From: a virus
DNA length: 25,738 nt
IMG/VR virus record: IMGVR_UViG_3300044985_000154
Location: 1-25,738 of that record
Direction: 5' to 3' (one strand)
The notes below the pieces were generated by a model that ran no database searches, was not told the origin of the DNA, and saw only the letters and a list, made by a program, of their open reading frames with translations. Of the stretch, positions 2,683-15,109 are shown in pieces. The position numbers and the translations under genes are program-made. How positions within the stretch are numbered: the stretch's first letter is position 1; every line of letters begins with the position of its first letter.

Positions 2683-3054
2683 TTAATTTATCGTCTTACC
2701 AGCTGATTCCTTGCCGAATGAGAAAGAGAATGAGCCTGAAGAATCACCTTCAACTTCGCCCTCAAATTCTTTCGCGAATCTGCGCAGATATGCCATGGCC
2801 GCCGCTTGTCCCTGCCTTCCTTTGGTAGATTCAACCAAGTTATCTATGACTGTTTTAACCGTCATCCCGCGCCCATAGGCATAAAATTCCGCGAAGTAAG
2901 TCAGCTCAGTATCAGACAAATCTTTCTCACGGATAGAGAGTGTTGCCAAGATTTCTTCCTTGCTCATACCAGCGGCCATCTCTTTGATAGTCATAAGCGT
3001 GGTATAATCAAGAATATCCATCTTTGGTACATCACGTGGTAGAGATTTAAGCAT
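2683..3054 (-). CDS. Probable terminase small subunit
   Basis: The 123-residue protein lies directly upstream of the large terminase, with a single base between stop and start. The start is supported by an AAGGA ribosome site about 8 bases upstream on the minus strand. Residues about 20-75 look like packed helices (TIKEMAAGMSKEEILATLSI, then a Leu/Thr-rich helix), as expected for the DNA-binding part of small terminases. The C-terminal tail is low in complexity, with alternating Ser and Phe (GSFSFSFGK). I do not see a diagnostic family motif. The assignment rests on position, size and the helix-turn-helix-like N-terminal half. It is the first gene of the leftward operon and faces the structured non-coding region at 3055-3820. 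Confidence 0.65.
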   Translation of the reverse strand: MLKSLPRDVPKMDILDYTTLMTIKEMAAGMSKEEILATLSIREKDLSDTELTYFAEFYAYGRGMTVKTVIDNLVESTKGRQGQAAAMAYLRRFAKEFEGEVEGDSSGSFSFSFGKESAGKTIN

Positions 3055-3820: not shown

Positions 3821-4258
3821 ATGTCAGAAGCAAAAGAAGTAAACGTACTCCACGGAGTCAAGCGTAGCGAGATAGTTAATCTCGACAAAAACCAGGCGTT
3901 CAAATTCATGATGATCGAAAAAGATCTCGAACATGATGTTGCGAACAAAGTCTGGGCTTTATTCGGTACAAAGAATAAAGGCGGAGTTTTTGGTGTCTTC
4001 CTCAAGTTTTGCGAGGAAAAGCCACAAACAGCGTACGATCTCGCAGAGTTCGTGATGAGCGATAAAAGCTCACCAAATGAAGTTCGGTGGTTCAATCAGC
4101 GGGATTCTATCCGCAAATTAGCGGTAGCGGTATTTGTTAAACTCGGTCAAGAGTTTACCGAAAAGGCCGTTACAGAAGCCCAGGTCAAGAAAATGGAAGC
4201 AATCGTTAAAAAGGTTGCGGAAGTTAACAAAGCCAAGAAAGCTGCTAAGGCCAAGTAG
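3821..4258 (+). CDS. Lysine-rich early protein with RWFNQ..xIRK motif
   Basis: The 145-residue protein is of unknown function. It starts at ATG 3821 after an AGGG ribosome site, at the end of a long structured leader, and heads a short operon. Most of the chain looks helical, and the last about 25 residues are Lys/Ala-rich, ending KKAAKAK like a histone- or nucleic-acid-binding tail. Residues 89-100 read RWFNQRDSIRKL. The protein encoded at 14504-15109 has RWFNQQNAIRKM at a comparable C-terminal position (8 of 12 identical), so the two are probably related. Its codons appear more GC-rich than those of most neighbours, consistent with high expression or a different origin. A role in coating or organising DNA is only a suggestion from the basic tail. 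Confidence 0.9.
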   Translation: MSEAKEVNVLHGVKRSEIVNLDKNQAFKFMMIEKDLEHDVANKVWALFGTKNKGGVFGVFLKFCEEKPQTAYDLAEFVMSDKSSPNEVRWFNQRDSIRKLAVAVFVKLGQEFTEKAVTEAQVKKMEAIVKKVAEVNKAKKAAKAK

Positions 4259-4656: not shown

Positions 4657-5037
4657 TTAAATTGGCATTATTGGTCCAGCCTCACTTATCTCAATTCTAA
4701 CACTTCCTAATTTAACAACCTCACCTCTGTAAATATGTAGCTGATCTATTAGTACATCATCGGTCCAAAGGCCGGCCTCAGTTAGTGCATCAAGTAGCCC
4801 CTTCATATAATTATCCAAATCCCGCTTTCTTCTATCCGGTGGGTACAGATATACCTCCATAAATATTGGCTCATCTATTGTGTCCAGATTAGCAGCCTGA
4901 ACCATCAAACAGTCCTCTACATCCTGCCGGAACACTCTCACTCTCTTATCCAAATACCGCTGTCCTTGTCTGGTCATCTTATAATAATTATTGATAGTTG
5001 GTGGCCAGGGTAAATGTAATACTATATCTTCTGTCAT
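4657..5037 (-). CDS. rusA: RusA-family Holliday junction resolvase
   Basis: The 126-residue protein matches the RusA endodeoxyribonuclease family, which cuts Holliday junctions as a dimer. The N-terminal PWPPTINNYYK (10-20) is the typical RusA opening. The core at 67-101 (PPDRRKRDLDNY...GLLDAL...GLWTDDVLIDQL) contains the acidic catalytic set, likely D73, D75 and D94, with K79 in the conserved KGLLDAL segment. The length is normal (E. coli RusA is about 120 residues). The start at 5037 has GAGG about 11 bases upstream. It is transcribed leftward, downstream of a repeat-rich region that may be an origin, and is convergent with the unit ending at 4588. It probably resolves recombination or replication intermediates before packaging. 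Confidence 0.95.
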   Translation of the reverse strand: MTEDIVLHLPWPPTINNYYKMTRQGQRYLDKRVRVFRQDVEDCLMVQAANLDTIDEPIFMEVYLYPPDRRKRDLDNYMKGLLDALTEAGLWTDDVLIDQLHIYRGEVVKLGSVRIEISEAGPIMPI

Positions 5038-5083
5038 ACTCGTTTTACCTCATGTTGTGTTAATAAGGATTATTTTGATTGCA

Positions 5084-5124
5084 TCCTTAGCTAATCCTTA
5101 GCTAATCCTTAGATAGATCCTTAG
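5084..5124. repeat. Direct array of four TCCTTAG repeats
   Basis: Copies of TCCTTAG start at 5084, 5095, 5106 and 5118, at spacings of 11, 11 and 12 bases, so all lie on about the same face of the helix. The second and third copies share the longer unit CTAATCCTTAG. This is typical of iterons or operator arrays. The array lies just upstream of the RusA start (5037, minus strand) and mirrors the inverted array at 5272-5309. Confidence 0.85.
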
Positions 5125-5271
5125 TAAATATATATATATATCATACACTTACGTAAGTTTTAGTCAAAGTAAGGATTAGTTGAGTGTGGGGACAGCCAAG
5201 CGAGCACACCCGCGCCGATCCGTCCTAAAATCCTTAAAGTACCTTAAGTTACTGAAATCTATAAGAAAAGA
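5125..5271. other. Candidate origin core: AT tract, palindrome and GC block between inverted iteron arrays
   Basis: Between the two repeat arrays lie an alternating (AT)7 run at 5128-5141, a perfect 12-bp palindrome ACTTACGTAAGT at 5147-5158, a GC-rich block at about 5187-5224, and a CTTA-rich segment around 5225-5250. No open reading frame of note is present. An easily melted AT tract flanked by phased repeats, next to a primase-helicase gene, is the usual layout of a phage or plasmid origin. The assignment is an inference from layout. Confidence 0.55.
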
Positions 5272-5322
5272 CTAAGGATTTACTAAGGATAGCTAAGGAC
5301 TACTAAGGATTTAGATCCTTAG
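5272..5322. repeat. Inverted array of CTAAGGA repeats (complement of TCCTTAG)
   Basis: CTAAGGA starts at 5272, 5283, 5293 and 5303 (spacings 11, 10 and 10), the reverse complement of the left array. One TCCTTAG copy follows at 5316-5322. The last two copies form an 8-bp hairpin, CTAAGGAT/ATCCTTAG with loop TTAG, at 5303-5322. The array ends three bases from the stop codon of the primase-helicase gene (5326), so the hairpin could also act on the 3' end of that mRNA. Confidence 0.85.
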
Positions 5323-5325
5323 AAG

Positions 5326-7533
5326 CTATCCATTCATCATGTGTTCAAAGTCTTTAGTTATCTGATACATCTTTTGTGCTTGTCCCTTATACTCTTTAAG
5401 AAGGCCAGCAGTCTCCATATACTGAATAACCTTAATCAATCCATCTACTGGCCTGGATTTAATAACATTATCATCTGCTATTCTACCCAAAGCCGGATTT
5501 TTACGGCACACGGCGCGGAGTCCACCAAAAAAGAAGATACCTTGCTTGCTCTGCTTAGCATTAGGTTGGCTAACCTCTTTACTGTACTTCCTTTGTATGA
5601 GCTTAATAATACTTTTACCAACAAAACCGCGGGCTAACTCATCCATAACACTATTGGAGGAACCGTCGAAGAACATAGCTAGGCCTGCTATTTCATACTC
5701 TATCATAGCCTCAGCCCAGTCTACCGCTTCACGAGTTAGCATGAGTTTCTTTTCATTAATCGCTGTAACTAGTGCAGCATATTTAATCATTTTGACCCAA
5801 CAACGTCCATACATAGCACTAGCAAGCGGGTCGCTTTCTGATAGACTATTATGCTTATTAGTATATTTCTCGCTTAATAAATGTATCCTTTCTTCCATAG
5901 GCCCAAACTCTATATTCCAAACATCATGTACTTCAGCCGTCTGAGCAGAATAACAATCATGCACAAGCTCCTTAATCCTGTCCTTAACAGATTGAGGTAT
6001 AATAGATTGATATGCATTAAAGTTCAGCGGAGGTCTGTCACCAAATATCCTAAATATACTCTGCCGAGGTAATGAACCATTTTCCAGACTACCAGAATTA
6101 TGAATAACATCTATTAAAGTCTCTGGCGTACTCTCATATATAATACTCATGGCCGGAGAAGATAAAGCGGGAATGCAGTCTTCTTGTTTACTATACGTTT
6201 CACCCATAGTATACTGACCAGCTCCACTTCGTCCATAAGCATTAAGTAGCATCCTAGTAATGCCCTTAGTATCTCCAGCAGTACTCTGCATCAATAGTCC
6301 CGCTTCTGATAAGATATTGATCTGGCTTCTAGCTGGTATCATCTGATTGATAATACCTTTTGGCCCAGTGAATCTACCCGAGCCAAGATGAGTAATAGCT
6401 TTAGTACTATCATTTAAACTATAAAATAGTTTCTGTATAAACGTAGGTATAGCATCCTTACCTGTACCAGTCTTAGCAACAAGTAGTGTATATGTATTTA
6501 GGCCGGTTCCATGTATATTAAACTTACGGCCACAAATTCCGCTTAAGACTCCTATTGTACTTACTATTGCAATCTCCTTGCGCGGATGATTAGCGGCATC
6601 TAGAGCAGCCTTTGCTAACTCTCCCATAAGACCAGGAGGCCAGGGCATATCACCTATATCAACCTTTTCATCTATTATATCAGGAAGATCAACACTTCTA
6701 TCTTCAGCGCCATTCCATGACCTTTCCAGTTCCTCTCTACTAAACCTATTCTTGATCCTATCATTATTCATTTCTTCAGGTATAGCAACGGCCATGCCCA
6801 TCAGAACCTGGATTGCTGTCTCTTTAGGTAATCCGTCCCGTTTCCAGCCCAACATGCGTTTATTTATAGCTTGGTGCAGTCCGTGACCACCACTCTTAAT
6901 AATCTCATTTATATCTTCTTCAGTCTGATGCGAGGATAGCTCAGTCAGGTTGCCATTACTAGCCTTCTCAGGCTTACTTTCCATACTAGGAGGAAATGCT
7001 TCTACTAACTCTCCCCAACTGTATCTCTGCCCTTTGCCGGCAGCAGTTACCTTAAACGGTGCAGTTGGATCTTTAAGATGATTATAACCAGGAAGTCTTA
7101 ATACTCTGGTAAGATCCTTAGCATTATCATCTCCATTATATTTAGCAATCAGCCCTCTTTGTACTAAGTTCCATGTCTCTAGATCGTCTGTCATTCCATC
7201 TATCAGCCAATAGTAATGATACTTACCTGGGCTGCTATTTACAATAAGACTTGGCACAAGCGGGAAATCACTCAACGGTGCGGCTTGCGGGTCATCAGCA
7301 TCCATAAATACAGCGCGTGCCGCGGTAACCATTTTCTTAGTTCGATGCCGGCCAGGATCTTTCGCCCTGTCTAAAAGATTAACCGTAAAATATATTGCTC
7401 GATCTTTATTTTCTTTTCTTAATTTGATCCTATTATATCCATCGTGATGATGCCAAGGTGTGCCATCTACTTCCAAGTTTGTCATAAAGATTGTATGCCC
7501 AGGGAAGTAGCTAAGGAACTTCTTTGTTTCCAT
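5326..7533 (-). CDS. RepB-like primase fused to a DUF3987-like helicase ATPase (replication initiator)
   Basis: The 735-residue protein has two modules. The N-terminal part (about 1-185) looks like a RepB-type archaeo-eukaryotic primase: RAVFMDADD at 73-81 carries the metal-binding acidic motif, SSPGKYHYYW at 100-109 the central motif, and RVLRLPGYNHLKDP at 143-156 the conserved third region. The C-terminal part (about 290-640) has Walker A AKTGTGKD at 353-360, a Walker B-like strand NILSEAGLLM, and a later SSPAMSIIYESTPETL segment, as in DUF3987 and superfamily 3-like helicases. Such fusions start and prime phage or plasmid DNA replication. The start has AGGA about 9 bases upstream. It runs leftward, opposite to the other replication genes, and iteron-like arrays begin three bases after its stop. 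Domain assignments rest on motif recognition. Confidence 0.9.
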   Translation of the reverse strand: METKKFLSYFPGHTIFMTNLEVDGTPWHHHDGYNRIKLRKENKDRAIYFTVNLLDRAKDPGRHRTKKMVTAARAVFMDADDPQAAPLSDFPLVPSLIVNSSPGKYHYYWLIDGMTDDLETWNLVQRGLIAKYNGDDNAKDLTRVLRLPGYNHLKDPTAPFKVTAAGKGQRYSWGELVEAFPPSMESKPEKASNGNLTELSSHQTEEDINEIIKSGGHGLHQAINKRMLGWKRDGLPKETAIQVLMGMAVAIPEEMNNDRIKNRFSREELERSWNGAEDRSVDLPDIIDEKVDIGDMPWPPGLMGELAKAALDAANHPRKEIAIVSTIGVLSGICGRKFNIHGTGLNTYTLLVAKTGTGKDAIPTFIQKLFYSLNDSTKAITHLGSGRFTGPKGIINQMIPARSQINILSEAGLLMQSTAGDTKGITRMLLNAYGRSGAGQYTMGETYSKQEDCIPALSSPAMSIIYESTPETLIDVIHNSGSLENGSLPRQSIFRIFGDRPPLNFNAYQSIIPQSVKDRIKELVHDCYSAQTAEVHDVWNIEFGPMEERIHLLSEKYTNKHNSLSESDPLASAMYGRCWVKMIKYAALVTAINEKKLMLTREAVDWAEAMIEYEIAGLAMFFDGSSNSVMDELARGFVGKSIIKLIQRKYSKEVSQPNAKQSKQGIFFFGGLRAVCRKNPALGRIADDNVIKSRPVDGLIKVIQYMETAGLLKEYKGQAQKMYQITKDFEHMMNG

Positions 7534-7864
7534 ATTCTGTAGTCCTATGTTTAGGTTAAATGTCGAGGGACGTACTATTGTAACTCATCCAAATATAGAT
7601 AGCTAATTAATTTTAACTATCGATTTTTACGTTTCAATAGTTAAATACTATTAGACAGCCAAGCCTTAATAATATACAATAGACTGTACTTAAAACGAAA
7701 AAGGAAAAGCAACGAAGATTAACAATTTAGCCATTAAATTTACTTATACCCCTATAAAGACACTCTATTCGCTATTCGCGCAAGATAGGAGTATAATTGT
7801 AGTGTAGGTTAAGTTTAAGTTGCATTTTAACTTACATTAATTCTCTCACTAAGGAGTAAATGTT
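7534..7864. promoter_or_regulatory. Divergent promoter/operator region
   Basis: This 331-base gap lies between the leftward primase-helicase and the rightward early operon and holds no credible gene. On the left it has a dyad TTAACTAT/ATAGTTAA (7613-7620/7637-7644) overlapping a second, AATAGT/ACTATT (7636-7641/7647-7652), likely operator or leader sites for the leftward gene. On the right it has a rightward promoter candidate and a leader dyad TAAGTT/AACTTA (7816-7821/7829-7834). I found no clear leftward -35/-10 pair. Confidence 0.6.
7765..7797 (+). promoter_or_regulatory. Candidate rightward early promoter
   Basis: A perfect -10 TATAAT lies at 7792-7797. The -35 position (TTCGCT, 7768-7773, 18-base spacer) is poor but sits in a tandem repeat CTATTCG-CTATTCG at 7765-7778, which may bind an activator. 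A second -10-like TATAAA lies at 7753-7758. Transcription would enter the operon starting at 7865. Confidence 0.55.
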
Positions 7865-9342: not shown

Positions 9343-9648
9343 ATGAACTTCACATTTACAATTATGGCTCATGGCTTCGATAAAGCAGCCAAATTAGAAG
9401 CATCACTTAAAGAACTTGGCATACCTTATGATGTAAGTATGGCTAAACCAGTTAATGGCAAAAGAACCCGTAAGCCCAGAGCTGTTATTGATAAGCTCAA
9501 GCTTGGCGTTATCCTCTCCGCTATTGATAAGCACCCGACTTGGAACGCTACGCATATAAGTAAAGATTGCGGTGTAGGAAGGAGTACAGTTGAGCGTATC
9601 ATGGCTGGAAAGCATGTTCTTCAACAACCGGCAACGGAGATACGATAA
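9343..9648 (+). CDS. Small helix-turn-helix DNA-binding protein
   Basis: The start lies one base after the upstream stop. Residues 39-56 are basic (NGKRTRKPRAVIDKLKL). Residues about 57-88 (LSAIDKHPTWNATHISKDCGVGRSTVERIM) have the spacing of a helix-turn-helix like that of resolvase or Hin-type domains: helix, Ala/Gly turn, and recognition helix STVERIM. The 101-residue length suits a phage regulator or an origin/replication accessory protein. Its targets could be the dyads at 7613-7652 or the early promoter, which is speculation. The stop overlaps the next start (TAATG). Confidence 0.8.
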   Translation: MNFTFTIMAHGFDKAAKLEASLKELGIPYDVSMAKPVNGKRTRKPRAVIDKLKLGVILSAIDKHPTWNATHISKDCGVGRSTVERIMAGKHVLQQPATEIR

Positions 9649-14503: not shown

Positions 14504-15109
14504 ATGGCAAAAGCACAAGAAGCAACTGAAGTAACCGAATCAGCTGATGAGATCAGTGAAATTCTCAATTCATTTAATGCCGGTGTCGATTCTGACAAAG
14601 GTGAAGATGAAGTGAAGATGGATATGATCGGAGCTGGAGCTACGTTTAAGAACGTAACTCGTTTGTATAACCAGTACATGATTGACACTGGTCGCTCAAT
14701 GTCCAAAGAAGCGAAAACCACTCTCCTGGATGACAACCTTAATGATGCTCCCCTGGATACAGAAGAAGGGTTTAAGGCAGCAGTAGCTGTTGTAGTCAAG
14801 AAAGGCAAGAACGTTACGGATGGTTCAGCAGCCTCATTGATTCGTGCCTGGGCGAAAAAGAATGAAACTGAGTGCTACAAAGCTCCGGCTTCTGAAGGTA
14901 CTCGTAACCCATTCGTTCCGAACTATCACAAGGCACTTATTGCTAATCCTGCAATGACCGAGCAAGGATTGAAGGACGTGATTGAAGCCCTGGAAAAAGA
15001 TGAGTGGAAAGTTAATCCTACTCGCTGGTTCAATCAGCAAAACGCTATCCGTAAGATGGTAAATGCGGTTAACGCCAAGCTGACTGGAGCAGAAGCAGAA
15101 GCAGCATAA
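14504..15109 (+). CDS. 201-aa early protein with RWFNQ..xIRK motif
   Basis: This protein of unknown function starts at ATG 14504 with GGAG 10 bases upstream. The N-terminal 40 residues are acidic; a middle part around 45-125 looks helical and includes VTRLYNQYM and SLIRAWAKK. The C-terminal part contains RWFNQQNAIRKM at 174-185, shared with the protein at 3821-4258 (RWFNQRDSIRKL), preceded in both by a helix and an Asn/Pro turn. It ends in an Ala/Glu-rich tail, opposite in charge to the Lys-rich tail of its relative. It has its own candidate promoter and leader, is flanked by non-coding structure on both sides, and its codons look more GC-rich than those of nearby genes. Abundant expression is likely; function is unknown. 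Confidence 0.9.
   Translation: MAKAQEATEVTESADEISEILNSFNAGVDSDKGEDEVKMDMIGAGATFKNVTRLYNQYMIDTGRSMSKEAKTTLLDDNLNDAPLDTEEGFKAAVAVVVKKGKNVTDGSAASLIRAWAKKNETECYKAPASEGTRNPFVPNYHKALIANPAMTEQGLKDVIEALEKDEWKVNPTRWFNQQNAIRKMVNAVNAKLTGAEAEAA

Follow-up and report, generated by a model that had tools for sequence, protein, structure and literature searches.

Analysis of the viral record IMGVR_UViG_3300044985_000154 (25,738 bases, classed as 'linear' in IMG/VR and probably a fragment of a genome; this whole stretch is hereafter called the window) pointed to the intergenic gap at 5038–5325, between a primase-helicase gene and rusA, as very probably the replication origin of a podovirus-like phage. It would be of the type found in phage P4 and in phage-inducible chromosomal islands (PICIs), and would lie 3' of the gene of its own initiator. 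This reading is favoured because the architecture of the gap is kept in relatives while the repeats change, because its 3' position is like that of P4 crr and of the origins of PICIs and Staphylococcus aureus pathogenicity islands (SaPIs), and because a pair of sites resembling those of integration host factor (IHF) was predicted in a leave-one-out test.

Two facing arrays of a 7-bp repeat occupy the gap. Both flanking genes are on the minus strand; the arrays lie 3' of the helicase gene, whose stop is at 5326, and upstream of rusA, which starts at 5037. All eight TCCTTAG/CTAAGGA copies listed in a first-pass annotation of this DNA were exact, and the (AT)7 run and the perfect 12-bp palindrome that it described between the arrays were likewise located (Table 1). 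That annotation made no mention of two inverted IHF-like half-sites (5133–5154 and 5242–5263) or of the G+C-rich block that they enclose. Degenerate copies of the repeat were also present at 5063, 5169 and 5231. The window has 20 occurrences of TCCTTAG where 4.4 would be expected; 20 was reached in none of 100 shuffles, and a four-copy array was present in none of 200 Markov sequences. Within the window, even three-copy arrays at 9–13-bp steps were absent for every other 7-mer family, and a scan of the whole window for mirrored arrays of exact 6-mers returned the arrays at 5084–5322 as the sole site, with a score of 12 and no site in 20 shuffles. Among the window's further matches, at least the one at 7849 is a Shine-Dalgarno-like sequence. 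An exact search of IMG/VR for three phased TCCTTAG copies gave 56 stretches, mostly with 12-bp steps, and most of these look like in-frame coding repeats.

Relatives were gathered through terminase, DnaE and RusA alignments; the window helicase used as the lone protein query gave just a near-identical contig, which is partial and ends within the helicase gene. In contigs with the helicase-to-rusA order, the two genes were separated by 220–430 bp, and these gaps hold copies of a single short motif, arranged as two inverted sets with steps of ~11 bp. The iteron sequence is specific to the element on a constant layout, with a GG-rich core common to most of the differing motifs. In Vibrio phage VA-RY-3 and Cronobacter phage Ss1, helicase and rusA overlap without a gap; these two and Vibrio phage PVA7, all cultured and complete, carry the module near the late/early boundary, spanning the record ends in Ss1. 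Eighty spacings from 15 loci, with motifs picked locus by locus, peaked at 11 bp with a second group at 21–22 bp, and coherence at 10.5 bp was R = 0.64. From this clustering at 11 and 21 bp, the repeats lie on one helix face, and the conservation of spacing in relatives, which had been set beforehand as a check, was confirmed. In iteron plasmids, a half-turn shift between iterons abolishes cooperative binding (PMC4980987). That the layout stays constant while the sequence diverges points to a bound complex, rather than an encoded product, as the target of selection. In a whole-locus repeat scan allowing one mismatch, the gap or the corresponding region ranked first in 10 of 16 loci, but not in L080, L113, L204, L205, VA-RY-3 and Ss1; in the exact mirror scan, the module was the single best site in L080, L203, L117 and L113.

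In nearly all relatives, the region between the arrays has an inverted pair, CTTATAAATCAAnnACTTAC / TATATATATTAnnAACTTA, matching or nearly matching the IHF consensus WATCARNNNNTTR. This consensus had 10 exact matches in 15 gaps, compared with 0.29 expected and a maximum of two in 300 shuffles. The gaps of the relatives were fixed before the motif was recognized as IHF-like; the excess nevertheless depends in part on how the regions were chosen, since those of L113 and of the cultured phages were picked by their repeats. The cleanest blind test of the study is the ranking by a matrix trained on the remaining loci alone, which, applied to both strands of the whole window, placed the window's own sites (5133, plus strand; 5242, minus strand) first and second. 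IHF may bind at both half-sites, and IHF sites are included in pSC101, R6K and chromosomal origins (PMC4980987). An extra IHF-like site of the same form was observed outside the helicase-rusA gap at L068:4804 and at L201:6671.

The 735-residue product of the adjacent gene is presumed to be the initiator that binds the iterons. In line with the first-pass annotation, which had called it a RepB-like primase-helicase and its neighbour RusA, Pfam matches to RepB_primase (2.8e-12) and DUF3987 (7.6e-8) were obtained for it, as was a RusA match for the neighbour. Its residues 300–620 align to MCM helicases (VIA-align Z of ~12 over 220–240 residues). Residues 600–735, folded alone with relatives, gave a confident winged helix (predicted local distance difference test, pLDDT, 85) which resembles MarR-type and other winged-helix proteins (Z 7–8.6). 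By sequence and prediction, the protein thus combines a helicase with a C-terminal DNA-binding domain, and it is through its C-terminal domain that SaPI Rep recognises its origin (PMC7581432). In 72 of 78 pairs, conservation was lower in the C-terminal part than in the core, as would be expected, without this being proof, if the predicted winged helix follows the changing iterons. A search of the PDB sequences with the helicase profile gave no match, and the origin-binding domain of P4 alpha was not among the structural matches listed for the C-terminal domain, which excludes nothing.

Taken together, these features would be compatible with the following sequence of events. The C-terminal winged helix of the 735-residue protein would bind the CTAAGGA sites on one helix face per array, IHF or a similar bender would fold the DNA at the two half-sites, and the AT tract, likely a DNA-unwinding element, would melt. 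One MCM-like hexamer would then be loaded per array, in opposite directions, which could make replication bidirectional; the fused RepB-type primase would prime and the DnaE-type polymerase of the phage would extend.

Several observations weigh against this interpretation. With regard to position, the site lies immediately 3' of the initiator gene in the window and in those helicase-rusA contigs that have a gap, but not in L113, where the module follows rusA, nor in PVA7, VA-RY-3 and Ss1, where it adjoins neither the helicase gene nor rusA. The relative orientation of the arrays varies from phage to phage, and in L204 and L205 the pattern was weak in the one-mismatch scan. The window's half-sites each have one mismatch to WATCARNNNNTTR. 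As to the protein, the mean confidence of the full helicase model was low (52.7), as was that of its N-terminal part; the Foldseek E-values for the winged helix were weak (best 0.012); and hhalign gave no similarity of the C-terminal domain to P4 alpha, a result which excludes nothing. Finally, the GC-skew check that had been proposed for this origin was answered in two ways: the skew minima of the complete cultured relatives lie at or within ~2 kb of the module, whereas that of the window lies at 7777, ~2.5 kb away, where gene orientation flips too. The skew is consistent with an origin yet confounded, because it follows gene orientation.

Table 1. Coordinates of the features of the gap and its two flanking genes in the window, and motifs of the equivalent gaps in related contigs
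Feature	Position or locus	Strand	Remark
Primase-helicase gene, 735 aa: RepB_primase N-terminal part, DUF3987/MCM-like AAA+ core, C-terminal winged helix	5326..7533	-	Pfam and models
RusA-like Holliday junction resolvase gene	4657..5037	-	4.3e-17; next gene downstream in many relatives
Whole origin-like module, intergenic gap from helicase stop to rusA start, 288 bp	5038..5325	.	ORF (open reading frame) coordinates; equivalent gaps in relatives
Left iteron array, 4 x TCCTTAG at 5084, 5095, 5106, 5118 (steps 11/11/12 bp)	5084..5124	+	
Right iteron array, 4 x CTAAGGA (TCCTTAG on -) at 5272, 5283, 5293, 5303 (steps 11/10/10 bp)	5272..5309	-	
Ninth copy, reversed, TCCTTAG	5316..5322	+	3 bp from helicase stop codon
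(AT)7 run	5128..5141	.	Between arrays, nearer the left one; AT run beside one array kept in several relatives
12-bp palindrome ACTTACGTAAGT	5147..5158	.	Overlaps IHF-like half-site X
Central G+C-rich block	5186..5225	.	Several relatives have one too
IHF-like half-site X, core 5139-5151 TATCATACACTTA	5133..5154	+	One mismatch to WATCARNNNNTTR; rank 1 in window
IHF-like half-site Y, core 5245-5257	5242..5263	-	Inverted relative to X, ~106 bp away; rank 2 in window
Sigma-70-like promoter match TTGACT-16-TATGAT, 10/12, toward rusA	5140..5167	-	Match number not above shuffles
Gap motif AGGGTAG/TACCC	L072, L118, L109, L117		
Gap motif AAAGGTA	L202		
Gap motif AGGGAAT	L203		
Gap motif TGGAGGA, also given as GGAGGAA	L201		
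Gap motif AAAAAGG	L080		
Gap motif AGGGTA	L204		
Gap motif, degenerate forms	L068, L074, L205		

The main competitor to an origin, albeit an improbable one, is an operator/promoter region in which a phage regulator, such as the 101-residue helix-turn-helix (HTH)-like protein encoded at 9343–9648, would bind the arrays and control rusA and later genes, with IHF shaping the promoter. Operators too can consist of phased repeats, and the left array lies between the rusA start and the sigma-70-like match, which is directed at rusA; promoter matches were, however, no commoner than in shuffles (3 vs 2.0), and the HTH-like protein had no relative in the other loci. Furthermore, the right array adjoins the 3' end of the helicase gene, with the promoter match between it and rusA, and the module lies away from rusA in VA-RY-3, Ss1 and PVA7 and after it in L113. 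The suggestion of the first-pass annotation that the left array could serve as an operator for rusA may still hold for a secondary role, given the promoter match, but leaves the right array and the modules away from rusA unexplained.

A start site for packaging (pac) or a terminase recognition region, given the terS-like and terL genes further along the same strand, was judged very unlikely. Pac sites are frequently close to terS, and the order from helicase and rusA to terminase is kept in several relatives, but the module is ~2 kb from the terS-like ORF (2683–3054), and iteron arrays with an IHF-like pair and an AT run by an initiator-like gene fit origins far better. Even less probable is a recombination site resembling a phage attachment site (attP). 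Its arm-type repeats and IHF sites would reproduce the attP layout of tyrosine integrases, and the arm repeats of P4 attP are similar on paper; nonetheless, no PF00589 integrase was found in the searched records of the helicase-rusA clade, which included three complete genomes, the window, as a fragment, being outside the search and serine integrases not being searched for. The same search was positive in 14 of 14 control genomes, and the attP site was rejected for want of a tyrosine integrase in these records. Equally hard to credit is a functionless repeat due to chance or low complexity, for which three tandem ATCCTTAGCTA units in an unrelated contig could be adduced: the mirror layout, the shuffles, the leave-one-out prediction and a layout constant on diverged sequence all oppose drift of a simple repeat, and the comparison with relatives contradicts this reading. 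That contig, from a G+C-rich phage (L051:2700–2770), repeats the 11-bp unit of the window's left array, which is probably a coincidence.

With regard to known systems, the origin proposed here most resembles those of PICIs and SaPIs, which are served by Rep or Pri-Rep and lie 3' of rep, where iterons also vary by element and the initiator likewise joins a helicase to a C-terminal DNA-recognition domain (PMC6092414, PMC7581432). In contrast to these, the window module occurs in tailed phages that are not satellites and that encode a DnaE-type polymerase and a terminase themselves, its initiator is composed of RepB_primase and DUF3987, and the modules of some relatives lie away from the helicase gene. 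A G+C-rich block between the arrays is a further difference, and the inverted pair of IHF-like sites may be another. An integrated, inducible satellite with an integrase is not what was found: because it has its own terminase and replication genes, and because no tyrosine integrase was present in the clade records searched, the window virus is not a PICI, and just its proposed origin is PICI-like.

P4 also uses a primase-helicase (alpha) as initiator; its 8-bp type 1 repeats occur in ori at ~10-bp steps and in both orientations, like the window's iterons, and crr, with the same repeat type, is directly 3' of the alpha gene, as the module is of the helicase gene. Unlike the window, P4 requires two separate regions ~4.5 kb apart and its repeats differ. 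No exact IHF consensus was found in P4 crr or ori. The mirror scan gave no detection in the P4 genome and thus misses known origins with irregular spacing. The iteron plasmids pSC101 and R6K share phase-dependent iterons, an AT-rich unwinding region and an IHF site that is needed or helpful (PMC4980987), but they rely on small Rep proteins and host helicase loading, whereas the window has two inverted arrays and a phage MCM-like helicase fused to a primase. In the staphylococcal cassette chromosome SCCmec, the self-loading helicase Cch2 binds repeats just downstream of its own gene, at a putative origin, as proposed for the window; these are just three 5-nt direct repeats in one set, and Cch2 belongs to another helicase subfamily (PMC7581432). 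The iteron origin beside its initiator that the first-pass annotation had proposed was therefore supported by comparison, its likeness being to the P4/PICI type with a self-loading helicase rather than to the standard plasmid iteron origin.

A search of IMG/VR with the half-site alone gave 80 loci among the matches listed, and mirrored phased repeats were found in 11 of ~82 half-site neighbourhoods, compared with one at random positions. The loci with mirrored repeats found in this way have unrelated motifs and gene contexts, which suggests a broader class of phage origins. Such repeats were observed in unrelated phages at L328:2480–2930, L313:5500–6130, L312:1740–2370, L316:2530–3160, L302:2300–2930 and L322:7700–7900, with the motifs GTGGCACG, AGAACA, GAACATT, TTGTTC and TGACCC; judged by eye, the L328 site is just upstream of a primase-helicase-like ORF. 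We propose tentatively, and with rather less than even confidence, a general class of phage origin in which inverted phased arrays and an inverted IHF-like pair form a dyad of half-origins, the iterons turning over with the winged helix, in Ss1-like and several unrelated phages. If true, the PICI-type origin arose in, or was shared with, ordinary lytic phages.

The describers of the PICI origin knew of no other bacterial replicon with such an organisation and called it unique to these satellites (PMC6092414). No prior description of such an origin in Ss1-like phages was found in the openly accessible literature, which is not proof of absence, and as far as that literature goes, the P4/PICI-like mirrored-iteron layout is new in free-living, non-satellite phages. 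Its extension to non-satellites bears on the source of satellite replicons, and probable replication origins are named for a mostly uncultured phage group and for the cultured Ss1, VA-RY-3 and PVA7. Fast iteron change on a fixed layout would also offer naturally matched pairs of initiator and origin for the study of origin choice and loading by MCM-like helicases.

Regarding the remaining genes of the window, the terminase large subunit is encoded on the minus strand together with RusA and the primase-helicase, while a Sak4-like protein, a Cas4-like nuclease, a helicase, DnaQ- and DnaE-like polymerase subunits and a ligase are encoded on the plus strand. The order of terminase, DnaE-type polymerase, Sak4-like protein, Cas4-like nuclease, helicase and ligase is that of Ss1-like podoviruses, and the nearest cultured relatives are Ss1, VA-RY-3 and PVA7. 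Identity to Ss1 and VA-RY-3 was 56–57% for the terminase and 40–41% for DnaE, compared with just 22–26% for the primase-helicase. Phage records searched at the DNA level with the window region gave no match. The helicase-rusA cassette (4657–7533) is on the opposite strand relative to VA-RY-3 (L007) and Ss1 (L008), and this inversion, together with the distant helicase, looks as if the replication cassette and its origin had been swapped as one unit. At 1–1182, directly after the terminase, a 394-residue ORF is open at the contig end, at the place of the portal gene in Ss1 and VA-RY-3. Many genes of PVA7 (L009, PQ582223) have fragmented annotations, with three pieces for DnaE and two for the ligase, which suggests frameshift errors in the deposited sequence. 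Lastly, the ORFs at 3821–4258 and 14504–15109 resemble each other in a C-terminal stretch (WFNQ..SIRK / WFNQQNAIRK) and are possibly paralogues.
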